Below are positions 8,397 through 16,717 of a DNA stretch of 39,677 bases, piece after piece. The DNA comes from a virus. The stretch covers positions 1 through 39,677 of the IMG/VR virus record IMGVR_UViG_3300023180_000144. The stretch is one strand, 5' to 3'. Both the position numbers and the translations under genes were made by a program. Numbering within the stretch: position 1 is the first letter of the stretch; the number at the start of each line of letters is the position of its first letter. The notes beneath the pieces were generated by a model. That model searched no databases, had not been told where the DNA came from, and saw only the letters and a list, made by a program, of their open reading frames with translations.

Positions 8397-8469
8397 GAAG
8401 AGGTTATCTCAGTCCGAGTATCTAAAAAGCGTTACGAATAATACCAAAAAAAGGAAGAAAAAACGCTAA
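8359..8469 (+). CDS. Small basic peptide, 36 aa
   Basis: A short ORF starting inside the previous gene (overlap 38 nt) and ending in a strongly basic tail rich in Lys and Arg (NNTKKRKKKR). The RLSQSEYLKSVT segment looks like real coding sequence rather than noise. The upstream run AAGAAGGAACTG gives a purine-rich site before ATG 8359. It could bind nucleic acid; function unknown. Its TAA stop lies inside the CTAAATA late-type motif at 8466. Confidence 0.45.
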   Translation: MEDKVSPTRGRDKKRLSQSEYLKSVTNNTKKRKKKR

Positions 8470-8472
8470 ATA
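8466..8472 (+). promoter_or_regulatory. Late-promoter-like CTAAATA
   Basis: A CTAAATA heptamer, a variant of the T4 TATAAATA core, overlapping the TAA stop at 8467-8469. The adjacent extended -10 promoter at 8477 is a stronger candidate, so this one may be incidental. Confidence 0.4.
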
Positions 8473-8476
8473 GATA

Positions 8477-8485
8477 TGCTATAAT
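8477..8485 (+). promoter_or_regulatory. Extended -10 sigma-70 promoter
   Basis: TGC followed by a perfect TATAAT gives an extended -10 element (TGN-TATAAT); no TTGACA-like -35 is visible. A start 6-7 nt downstream of the -10 would fall at about 8492, exactly at the first base of the riboswitch-like P1 stem at 8493, which supports both calls. Confidence 0.65.
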
Positions 8486-8492
8486 GCATATA

Positions 8493-8562
8493 CGTTCATC
8501 CCATTCGCTATTCGCAAATGGCGAATGAGACGCAAGTAAGTCGCGGAACGGAGCGTTCATCC
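8493..8562 (+). promoter_or_regulatory. Candidate glutamine riboswitch (glnA/Downstream-peptide class)
   Basis: The order of elements matches my memory of the glutamine-riboswitch family of cyanobacteria and cyanophages: CGTTCATCC (8493-8501), a P2 hairpin CATTCGC/GCGAATG (8502-8508, 8521-8527), a GACGCAAGTAAG E-loop-like segment (8529-8540), and GGAACG (8545-8550) closing P1 with the 5' CGTTC. The P3 stem of the family consensus appears reduced, so it is a degenerate or variant member. A second CGTTCATCC at 8554-8562 can pair with the same GAACG to form GAACG-GAG-CGTTC, enclosing part of the GGAG ribosome-binding site just before ATG 8564. Downstream is a 59-aa peptide, as the class name implies. 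Confidence 0.6.
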
Positions 8563-8563
8563 T

Positions 8564-8743
8564 ATGTTATCATTGGCACTCATCTTTTTTAGTCATGTCC
8601 CAGTGGAGAATTATCTTCGCTGTGAAGACTACGAATGGTTGAAGCAAGGATTGGAAGAGACAACTCTTTTCACTCCCTTTGAGAAGTCTGATATTCTCAT
8701 CCACTGGATGAATCATACAGACCCTCACTGCTTTGATAAGTAG
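8564..8743 (+). CDS. Small peptide under the riboswitch-like leader, 59 aa
   Basis: A 59-residue protein with a hydrophobic start (MLSLALIFFSHVPVE) that could be a short signal or membrane anchor, two Cys (in LRCEDYEW and HCFDK) and a body rich in Glu, Leu and Trp. I associate this pattern with a small cyanophage family in which a signal-like start precedes a CxDYxWLK segment, but know no function. GGAG at 8550-8553 is the likely ribosome site and lies in the switch region. If the leader is a glutamine sensor, this peptide would be made according to host nitrogen status. Confidence 0.7.
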   Translation: MLSLALIFFSHVPVENYLRCEDYEWLKQGLEETTLFTPFEKSDILIHWMNHTDPHCFDK

Positions 8744-8769
8744 GACGCAAACGACTGAAGGAACGGGAG
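8744..8769 (+). promoter_or_regulatory. Second, partial riboswitch-like element
   Basis: GACGCAA (8744-8750) and ACTGAAGGAACG (8754-8765) closely resemble the 3' half of glutamine-riboswitch RNAs, but the 5' CGTTC partner for P1 is not seen upstream. It precedes the DUF4278-like gene. It may be a decayed duplicate of the 8493 element. Confidence 0.35.
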
Positions 8770-8801
8770 TTAATTCACCCTAGTATTTCAGGAGACCTAC
8801 A

Positions 8802-8966
8802 ATGAACACACTCAACCTCATCCGTGAGAAGATCGAGAAGGCATCACGTCTTCACGATGCACAAATTCATATGACATCTTATCGCGGTGTCCAATATGAG
8901 TGCAAGCAAGGTGCAGAAGAAATTCATGGCACTTTCTGCTATCGCGGGCATACTTACAACAAGTGA
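8802..8966 (+). CDS. DUF4278-like small protein, 54 aa
   Basis: A 54-residue protein with the pattern YRGVQYEC and later GTFCYRGHTY, typical of the short DUF4278 family found in cyanobacteria and cyanophages, in which a YRGxxY motif is repeated. No known biochemical role. The start is well supported by AGGAG at 8790-8794, 7 nt before the ATG. It ends just before a strong terminator, so it closes the unit that begins at the extended -10 promoter at 8477. Confidence 0.75.
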   Translation: MNTLNLIREKIEKASRLHDAQIHMTSYRGVQYECKQGAEEIHGTFCYRGHTYNK

Positions 8967-11752: not shown

Positions 11753-11825
11753 GGGACAGTAGCTCAGCGGATAGAGCAACTGCCTTCTAAGCAGTCGGTC
11801 GTAGGTTCGATCCCTACCTGTCTCG
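11753..11825 (+). tRNA. tRNA-Arg (anticodon TCT)
   Basis: A 73-nt cloverleaf: acceptor GGGACAG paired with CTGTCTC (one G-T pair), D arm with AGCTCAGCGG, anticodon stem CTGCC... in CTGCCTTCTAAGCAG with TCT at the centre of the loop, and a T arm GTAGGTTCGATCCCTAC. Discriminator G; CCA is not encoded. TCT reads AGA (and AGG), codons that are frequent in the phage genes here. It lies between two oxygenase-cassette genes. Confidence 0.95.
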
Positions 11826-11871
11826 CTTCCTGCTTAACAGCAGGACCCCAACAGAAGATACGGAGAGGAGT

Positions 11872-15466: not shown

Positions 15467-15634
15467 GTCAACGGGTTACGAAATGTTTCATTTCACAACA
15501 CCTTTGTTACATCCCTGCCGCTTGACCGAGACTAGGCAGGGTTACCAATCCGTCTCTCATATCCCGAGGCGAGGGGTCTTGGGAAATAGTAACTCCACCA
15601 TGTCCCTGATGGTCTTACTTCTAAGTACATAACA
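15467..15634 (+). promoter_or_regulatory. Structured psbA 5' leader
   Basis: About 168 nt without a convincing gene. It can form three hairpins: CCCTGCC/GGCAGGG (15513-15519 with 15535-15541), TCCCGAG/CTTGGGA (15562-15568 with 15578-15584, one G-T pair) and ACCAT/ATGGT (15597-15601 with 15609-15613). No Shine-Dalgarno sequence is visible before ATG 15635. PhotoRC RNA motifs are known upstream of psbA in cyanobacteria and cyanophages; I cannot tell whether this matches one. Confidence 0.5.
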
Positions 15635-16717
15635 ATGGCTTCATCTACACTTTCACAAAAACAGAATACATCTCAATGGGAACAGTTTTGTAATTGGGTC
15701 ACTAGCACCGACAACCGCCTCTATGTGGGTTGGTTTGGTGTCCTGATGATTCCCTGCCTCCTGGCTGCTACAACCTGTTTCATCATTGCCTTCGTTGGTG
15801 CTCCCCCTGTGGACATTGACGGTATCCGTGAACCTGTCGCTGGATCACTCCTCTATGGCAACAACATCATCTCTGGGGCAGTCGTCCCCTCGTCCAACGC
15901 AATCGGACTCCACTTCTATCCCATCTGGGAAGCAGCAAGTCTCGACGAATGGCTCTACAACGGTGGACCCTTCCAACTCGTCGTCTTCCACTTCCTCATC
16001 GGTATCTATGCTTACATGGGACGCGAATGGGAACTTAGTTACCGACTAGGGATGCGCCCCTGGATCTGCGTTGCTTACAGCGCACCCGTCGCTGCTGCAT
16101 CTGCTGTCTTCCTGGTTTATCCTTTCGGTCAAGGTTCTTTCTCTGATGCGATGCCTCTTGGTATCTCTGGCACCTTCAACTACATGCTTGTCTTCCAAGC
16201 AGAGCACAACATCCTGATGCACCCCTTCCACATGCTCGGCGTCGCTGGCGTCTTCGGTGGATCCCTCTTCTCTGCCATGCACGGTAGTCTGGTTACCTCT
16301 TCTCTGGTCCGTGAGACCACCGAGAATGAGTCCCAAAACTATGGTTACAAGTTTGGTCAAGAAGAAGAGACCTACAACATCGTTGCTGCTCATGGTTACT
16401 TCGGTCGCCTGATCTTCCAATACGCTTCCTTCAACAACTCCCGCTCGCTGCACTTCTTCCTGGCAGCATGGCCCGTCGTTGGCATCTGGTTTACTGCTCT
16501 GGGCGTTAGCACCATGGCATTCAACCTGAATGGTTTCAACTTCAACCAGTCCGTCATTGATGGTCAGGGTCGTGTGATCAACACTTGGGCAGATGTGCTC
16601 AACCGCGCTGGTCTGGGTATGGAAGTGATGCACGAGCGTAATGCTCACAACTTCCCTCTTGACCTCGCTGCTGCTGAGTCCACTCCTGTGGCACTGACTG
16701 CACCCGCGATCGGTTGA
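15635..16717 (+). CDS. psbA: Photosystem II D1 protein
   Basis: A full-length 360-residue D1, the photosystem II reaction-centre subunit that turns over fastest in light. Five membrane helices, the [14 protein letters not shown] helix with the chlorophyll/iron His, the [17 protein letters not shown] quinone region and the [14 protein letters not shown]-terminus with manganese ligands and the processing site are all intact. The residue at the position equal to D1-130 is Glu (GREWELSY, 131 here because of a one-residue longer N-terminus), the high-light isoform. No intron. It is C-rich at third positions compared with flanking phage genes. It has its own promoter and terminator. Confidence 0.99.

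Follow-up and report, generated by a model that had tools for sequence, protein, structure and literature searches.

The window analysed here is the whole of a 39,677-nucleotide viral stretch (IMG/VR record IMGVR_UViG_3300023180_000144, positions 1 to 39,677). One region of it carries promoter-like elements, a structured leader, a small open reading frame (ORF), a second half-element and a gene for a DUF4278-like protein (Table 1). An earlier note on this DNA had read the leader as a glutamine-riboswitch-like element placed ahead of the ORF, and all of the letters it described were found where it had placed them. These include the extended -10 element TGCTATAAT (8477-8485), GAACG (8546-8550), the GAG loop (8551-8553), the ATG (8564) and a duplicated CGTTCATCC (8493-8501 and 8554-8562), which has only these two exact copies in the whole window. 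GAACG is able to pair with either CGTTC. The second half-element, GACGCAAACGACTGAAGGAACG, is absent from that note and lies directly 3' of the ORF at 8744-8765. A frame common to both halves, GACGCAA...GGAACG, occurs twice, against 0.02 occurrences expected by chance.

Table 1. Features of the locus, with pairings as predicted for the glutamine-bound fold
Feature	Position	Strand	Remarks
CTAAATA	8466-8472	+	cyanophage late-promoter-like box (putative function)
TATAAT	8480-8485	+	extended -10, preceded by TGC; predicted transcript start about 8492
P1 5' strand, CGUUC	8493-8497	+	pairs with 8761-8765; invariant in aligned relatives
P2 hairpin	8499-8508/8521-8530	+	one C-A mismatch; loop holds another ORF in some relatives
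J2/3 and loop E 5' side, CGCAAGUA	8531-8538	+	loop E strand is 8535-8538
Linchpin nucleotide C8533	8533		G23 in type 1; the neighbouring G8532 is the G22 equivalent
P3 5' strand, AGUCG	8539-8543	+	pairs with 8752-8756 across the ORF
P4 hairpin, GAACG-GAG-CGUUC	8546-8558	+	over the ORF's ribosome-site-like GGAG; inside the P3 loop
P5 5' strand, UCCUA	8560-8564	+	A8564, with which the start codon begins, is paired
Embedded ORF	8564-8743	+	59 aa (MLSLALIFFSHV...HTDPHCFDK), stop UAG
P5 3' strand, UAGGA	8741-8745	+	contains the stop codon UAG; pairs with 8560-8564
J5/3 CGCAAA and P3 3' strand CGACU	8746-8756	+	P3 strand is 8752-8756
Loop E 3' side, P1 3' strand, linchpin G8766	8757-8766	+	GAA 8757-8759; GAACG 8761-8765
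UUUCAGGAG	8786-8794	+	includes AGGAG 8790-8794, the ribosome site of the downstream gene; pairs with CUGAAG 8755-8760 in the alternative fold
Downstream gene	8802-8966	+	54 aa, DUF4278-like (YRG motifs)

The promoter-like elements recur in related phages. CTAAATA or ATAAATA lies at -35 to -27 from CGTTCA in about 70 of 163 listed relatives, and a TATAAT with at least five of its six letters lies at -16 to -13 from CGTTCA in most of the listed relatives. In the window, TATAAT forms the loop of an inverted repeat (8474-8479/8486-8491, ATATGC/GCATAT). The letters of this repeat differ between phages while the palindrome is kept, with stems of at least 6 in 55% of 161 relatives versus 5% of shuffles. 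Since CTAAATA lies upstream of the repeat, late transcripts would start with this hairpin (8474-8491).

Conservation of the second CGTTCATCC in other cyanophages had been proposed as a check on the riboswitch reading, and we found it to be conserved. Matches to a 43-nt stretch that includes it (8527-8569) come from at least 419 records of cyanophages; in 302 of these the identity is 95% or higher. The transaldolase gene directly following is merely 60-80% identical in nearly all its matches, and by this contrast the conservation of 8527-8569 exceeds chance. The stretch 8746-8756 is also conserved, although in the window it lies beyond the ORF's stop codon. In many relatives the second half-element can be read as coding, ending in DAND-stop. 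We rejected protein coding as the sole cause of its conservation because the class to which the window belongs has a stop codon ahead of the second half-element, and because, in L038 and L057, a change of GAC to GAU within it is accompanied by the matching G-to-A change in the first half. A scan of a genome collection gave mostly chance matches and two real copies only among the matches listed: L317 and L270, the latter a contig of 7 kb assigned to a Prochlorococcus bin.

We compared the two halves across at least 213 distinct copies in which both could be aligned, nearly all of them viral, among the matches listed. In the 120 viral loci that were read, the loop E strand AGUA occurs in the first half without its partner GAA, and the second half has the reverse. 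AGUCG (8539-8543), which follows AGUA, is the exact complement of CGACU (8752-8756), which precedes GAA. The complementary half loops and this complementarity point to one type-1 glutamine aptamer split around the ORF. Comparison across the relatives shows a predicted fold in which P1, P2, loop E, P3 and the linchpin pair join 8493-8543 with 8752-8766, with P3 spanning the ORF. The same comparison shows a putative three-way junction inside P3, composed of P4 over the ORF's ribosome site and P5 closing on the start codon. P3 had appeared reduced in the earlier note. It is not reduced; its 3' strand lies 208 nt downstream.

Most helices of this fold vary in a compensated manner. P3 changes across the ORF as AGUCG/CGACU, AAUCG/CGAUU, AGUCA/UGACU, GGAAGG/CCUUCC, AGUUG/CAACU and GGUUAACG/CGUUAAUU, and position 8 of its long form is U-A, G-C or A-U. 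P5 has 89 distinct versions among ORF-bearing copies, 96% of which are paired over 5 bp, versus 35-57% when the strands are slid. P2 occurs as 91 distinct short helices, 93% paired over 5 bp versus 38-54% slid. P4 changes between GAACG/CGTTC, CAACG/CGTTG and AAACG/CGTTT, with the outer CGTTC and GAACG constant. P1 gives no covariation because its letters never vary. Loop E reads AAA in 39 of 213 listed relatives. In 16 diverse copies, typed with arm loops and ORFs shortened, 93.2% of cells were paired, versus 78.6% in shuffles and no more than 50% in slid registers; both sides had changed in 17 pairs, a level reached by 0 of 500 shuffles. One of the scan patterns fixed some P4 letters and none of P3 or P5, and another fixed no P4 letters. 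Because the sequences share ancestry, the counts do not represent independent events, yet P2, P3 and P5 each occur in several different compensated versions. In these alignments P2, P3, P4, P5 and the linchpin covary, and P3, P5 and the linchpin do so across the ORF.

The linchpin pair distinguishes between alternative arrangements of the aptamer. Paired through the far GAACG (8761-8765), it is kept in 212 of the 213 listed copies (99.5%), as C-G in 177 and G-C in 35, with a single C-A. One-piece viral glnA aptamers show the same swap (100 G-C and 21 C-G among the matches listed). With the near GAACG as the partner of P1, the linchpin is kept in about 84% of copies and fails in 16%. The earlier note had taken this near P1 (8493-8497/8546-8550) as the ligand-bound helix of an aptamer consisting of 8493-8550 alone, in which glutamine would expose the ORF's ribosome site and switch the ORF on. 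The pairing is present in the letters and in the unconstrained minimum-free-energy (MFE) fold, and the repeat it uses is conserved. The linchpin would nevertheless be mismatched in nearly the whole G-C subgroup (32 G-G), the near half lacks loop E, the GGAG is not conserved and the Rfam score is below threshold. We consider this model very improbable. As the linchpin needs the far GAACG and the near GAACG covaries with 8554-8558, the P4 hairpin over the ORF's ribosome site is best taken as part of the aptamer fold.

Calculated energies of the window RNA are -94.3 kcal/mol for the free fold, -88.4 for the nested fold described above and -85.9 for a fold into two tandem aptamers, with loop E, the linchpin and the ligand uncounted. 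The energy model thereby prefers another fold, with near P1, by about 6 kcal/mol. The presence of near P1 in the unconstrained MFE fits a ligand-free state without proving it, and near P1 is more likely the ligand-free pairing.

Two tandem aptamers (8493-8550 and 8554-8765) could also fold independently, in which case the ORF would occupy the P2 loop of the second. There is precedent for tandem glnA RNAs (PMC2864571), the first half has a weak match of 16.1 bits in the window, and the inner half alone scores above the Glutamine cut-off in L123 (38.1 bits) and L132 (35.5 bits), so that a tandem-like fold is possible as an alternative state. Against this arrangement, the linchpin is kept in 83.6% for either half versus 99.5% for the nested fold, and P3 and P4 covary in the nested register. 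Neither half has a loop E and linchpin of its own, the first lacking GAA and the second AGUA; instead, the halves complement each other. We regard independent tandem aptamers as improbable. Both the near-P1 aptamer and the tandem fold were rejected on the linchpin, loop E and the covariation of P3 and P4. The nested architecture probably arose from a tandem aptamer pair with exchanged strands and ORFs in the apical loops. In one relative (L043), the first half is intact to P4, the second CGTTCATCC is missing and the second half lies 288 nt away, an arrangement that looks partly deleted or recombined.

We examined family membership with Rfam. At threshold, only a tRNA and a PhotoRC-II RNA were found in the whole window, and no glutamine riboswitch. 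The tRNA-Arg (TCT) at 11753-11826 is the window's only tRNA, and the PhotoRC-II RNA (15501-15597, 54.7 bits) lies ahead of psbA at 15635. A covariance-model search had been suggested as a check on the family assignment, and at 8490-8557 it fell short, with Glutamine-II at 17.1 bits (cut-off 33), several pairs being marked non-standard, and Glutamine at 16.1 bits (cut-off 35), a match fitted to the near half. Presumably the 208-nt insert with its ORF interrupts the Glutamine model. Four relatives without the ORF exceed the Glutamine cut-off (L090, 41.5 bits; L080, 41.4; L140 and L147, both 43.6), with matches that run end to end over the P3 insert. Another ORF-less copy, L089, gave no Glutamine match above threshold. 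Compared with glutamine-I (RF01739), the window has P1 CGUUC/GAACG and P2 joined by UC...GA, loop E AGUA/GAA directly flanking the covarying P3, and the long-range linchpin pair, which is swapped to C8533-G8766. A DUF4278 gene lies downstream, though its Pfam score in the window is below cut-off. The short-hairpin P3 of RF01739 was not found, as P3 here encloses P4, P5 and the ORF.

The ligand-contact letters were compared with published structures. The contact sites reported for glutamine are C1-G59, G2-C58 and G22 (PMC6698751), and C1, G2, G22, C58 and G59 are all present, at 8493, 8494, 8532, 8764 and 8765. The linchpin pair of the type-1 aptamer is G23-C60 (PMC11477058), and the long-range pair of glutamine-II is C19:G41 (PMC6698751). 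The sole core change in the window is G23 to C, which is compensated by C60 to G and gives the pair type of glutamine-II. DUF4278 is a protein class mainly associated with glutamine riboswitches (PMC6316151), and glutamine riboswitches have been noted in cyanophages before (PMC9964418, PMC9602691). The retained contact letters, the compensated core change and the DUF4278 neighbour make L-glutamine the likely ligand. The alteration of the linchpin from G-C to C-G would also suit an RNA structure, conserved in the leader and between the genes, that governs the translation of two small genes and does not sense glutamine. We give this little chance, since all published contact letters are kept, the linchpin change is compensated as in glutamine-II, the DUF4278 linkage holds and ORF-less forms match Rfam. 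The earlier assignment to the glutamine riboswitches stands, whereas the extent and wiring proposed with it do not: the RNA has three times that length, and its strands pair in another arrangement. On the strength of sequence comparison, we think it probable that T4-like cyanophages carry here a composite riboswitch of the type-1 glutamine class, with a small gene lying between the two halves of a single aptamer.

The embedded ORF belongs to PHROG 13397 (E = 1.6e-44), a family without assigned function, and evolves under purifying selection, typical pairs having a dN/dS of about 0.2. Its protein is modelled as a two-helix hairpin (pLDDT 84) in which cysteines 20 and 56 are conserved. Pfam and a PDB fold search assigned it no function, and its best matches in a viral structure library are uncharacterised small proteins, mostly from cyanophages. 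The ORF's GGAG is not conserved in relatives, the loop reading GAG in 77 and GAT in 57 of 213 listed copies, and we rejected a ribosome-site role for GGAG 8550-8553 on this basis.

Other copies carry ORFs in either arm. P5 is ORF-sized in 157 of the 213 listed copies; both arms are so in 31 and neither in 24. The interval between the P2 strands exceeds 100 nt in 50 of 213, and most of these hold an ORF whose start codon belongs to the closing helix, as in UCUUAUGG/CCAUAAGA. The ORF family found in P5 of the window is found in P2 in L144, and in L373 an aptamer in one piece carries an ORF in its P2. Among cultured phages, Syn9 has gp196 in P2 and gp197 in P5, followed by gp198 (DUF4278-like), while S-RSM4 and Syn1 have the P5 form.

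These inserts could be passengers of a real aptamer, whose closing helices just keep it foldable while glutamine controls the DUF4278 gene only. The class of the downstream gene is unchanged whether ORFs are in P2, in P5, in both or in neither, loop length varies, and any large insert needs a closing helix. Two features speak against a passenger: the start codon is nearly always 3-5 nt after CGUUCA, in or at the closing helix, and the stop codon frequently falls within the aptamer core, as UGA in P3/loop E. We consider the passenger explanation unlikely, though it keeps an appreciable chance.

The gene downstream of the second half-element is conserved in kind. Its product matches PF14105 with E = 4e-4 (21.1 bits, below the 25.3 cut-off), and a YRG (DUF4278-like) protein comes next in 192 of the 196 listed relatives that have a downstream ORF. 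In L008, the ORF directly after the second half-element encodes a protein that resembles an HNH endonuclease by eye, rather than the usual DUF4278 protein. In S-RSM4, the DUF4278-like gene (FM207411.1 SRSM4_011, L538:1774-1938) carries the GenBank note 'similar to Peptidase M23', which is probably a misannotation. An extra element is present between P1 and the downstream ribosome site in 24 of 213 listed relatives, including L062, L097, L152, L174 and Syn9 (L537:1714-1745). It consists of ACGGATC, a variable short hairpin and AAGG (for example ACGGATCC-AGCGAAAGCT-GAGAAGGTTAA), and Rfam listed nothing there in L025 and L057, which both have it.

We found candidate switching helices that involve the ribosome site of the downstream gene. 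CUGAAG (8755-8760), which comprises the end of P3, loop E and one base more, can pair with UUUCAG (8786-8791), whose AG begins the AGGAG of the DUF4278 gene. This helix is present in the window's unconstrained MFE. Among the listed relatives of the C-G group, a helix of at least five Watson-Crick pairs occurs in 49%, versus 8% of shuffles. Where the equivalent of 8757 is A, all 20 partners are U and none is C (Fisher p = 1.5e-6, phylogeny ignored). The G-C group lacks this helix and has CUCUUUA/UAAGGAG, which starts exactly at the linchpin nucleotide; its Shine-Dalgarno (SD) site is paired at 0.91 versus 0.64 for shuffles. When just the stretch after P1 was folded, the downstream ribosome site of the C-G group was no more paired than in shuffles. 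An anti-SD hairpin right after P1 was accordingly set aside for the window's subgroup, being clear in the G-C subgroup only. Given these alternative helices, each group has a plausible OFF helix that would be broken by the ligand-bound fold, which suggests that the DUF4278 gene is under an ON switch.

These features can be combined into a mechanism, which we state conditionally. Without glutamine, CUGAAG would pair with UUUCAG and cover part of the DUF4278 ribosome site, while CGUUC at 8493 would pair with the near GAACG. A ribosome ending translation of the ORF would sit on the 3' half of the aptamer and keep the aptamer unfolded. Glutamine would draw the two halves together and free the DUF4278 ribosome site, in keeping with host type-1 and type-2 glutamine riboswitches, which are reported as ON switches (PMC6316151). 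The bound fold would also lock P4 and P5 and may thereby shut off the enclosed ORF, so that the glutamine level would decide whether the DUF4278 protein or the enclosed small protein is made. We tentatively propose, as a possibility rated somewhat below even, that the aptamer arms are small-gene cassettes whose start (and often stop) codons are paired in the bound fold, turning the enclosed gene off and the next gene on in a two-output, mutually exclusive glutamine circuit.

We compared the element with known RNAs. It shares with glutamine-I (glnA, RF01739) P1, P2, loop E, the linchpin pair, the contact letters, a DUF4278 target and, probably, a translational ON switch. It differs in that an ORF divides the aptamer, P3 opens into a three-way junction with two additional helices, the linchpin is C-G rather than G-C, and the start codon of the enclosed ORF is paired in the fold. 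Glutamine-II (Downstream-peptide, RF01704) has in common with it the CGUUCA, CGCA and GGAACGG words, a C-G long-range pair and a small-protein neighbour, and works as two separate strands (PMC6698751), but the split aptamer has loop E and P3 instead of a pseudoknot with a 3' P2 helix. Tandem glnA riboswitches, the likely ancestor, also have two CGUUCA and two GGAACG units in a row; here the strands are exchanged, outer with outer and inner with inner, giving one complete aptamer only. Group I introns carry homing-endonuclease ORFs in peripheral loops and likewise place a protein gene in a loop of a folded functional RNA. The present element, in contrast, does not splice, would sense a metabolite and has the start and stop codons of its ORF within the closing helix.

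The literature that we searched described no gene enclosed in a riboswitch aptamer and no DUF4278 protein in cyanophages. To our knowledge, no described riboswitch contains a complete protein gene inside its aptamer, and we know of no sensor arm closed by a gene's own start and stop codons. If confirmed, the element would represent a new way of building a riboswitch. It shows a natural linchpin swap between the type-1 and type-2 forms of glutamine riboswitches. At least 419 records of cyanophages contain its core, some of them from cultured isolates (Syn9, for example), and it may explain rows of tiny conserved phage genes with near-identical leaders. If the element is confirmed, the virus would probably use it to adjust a protein akin to nitrogen regulators of the host. 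It suggests how a phage might sense the nitrogen state of its host and respond by way of a protein with kinship to the N-terminal part of a glutamine synthetase inactivating factor.
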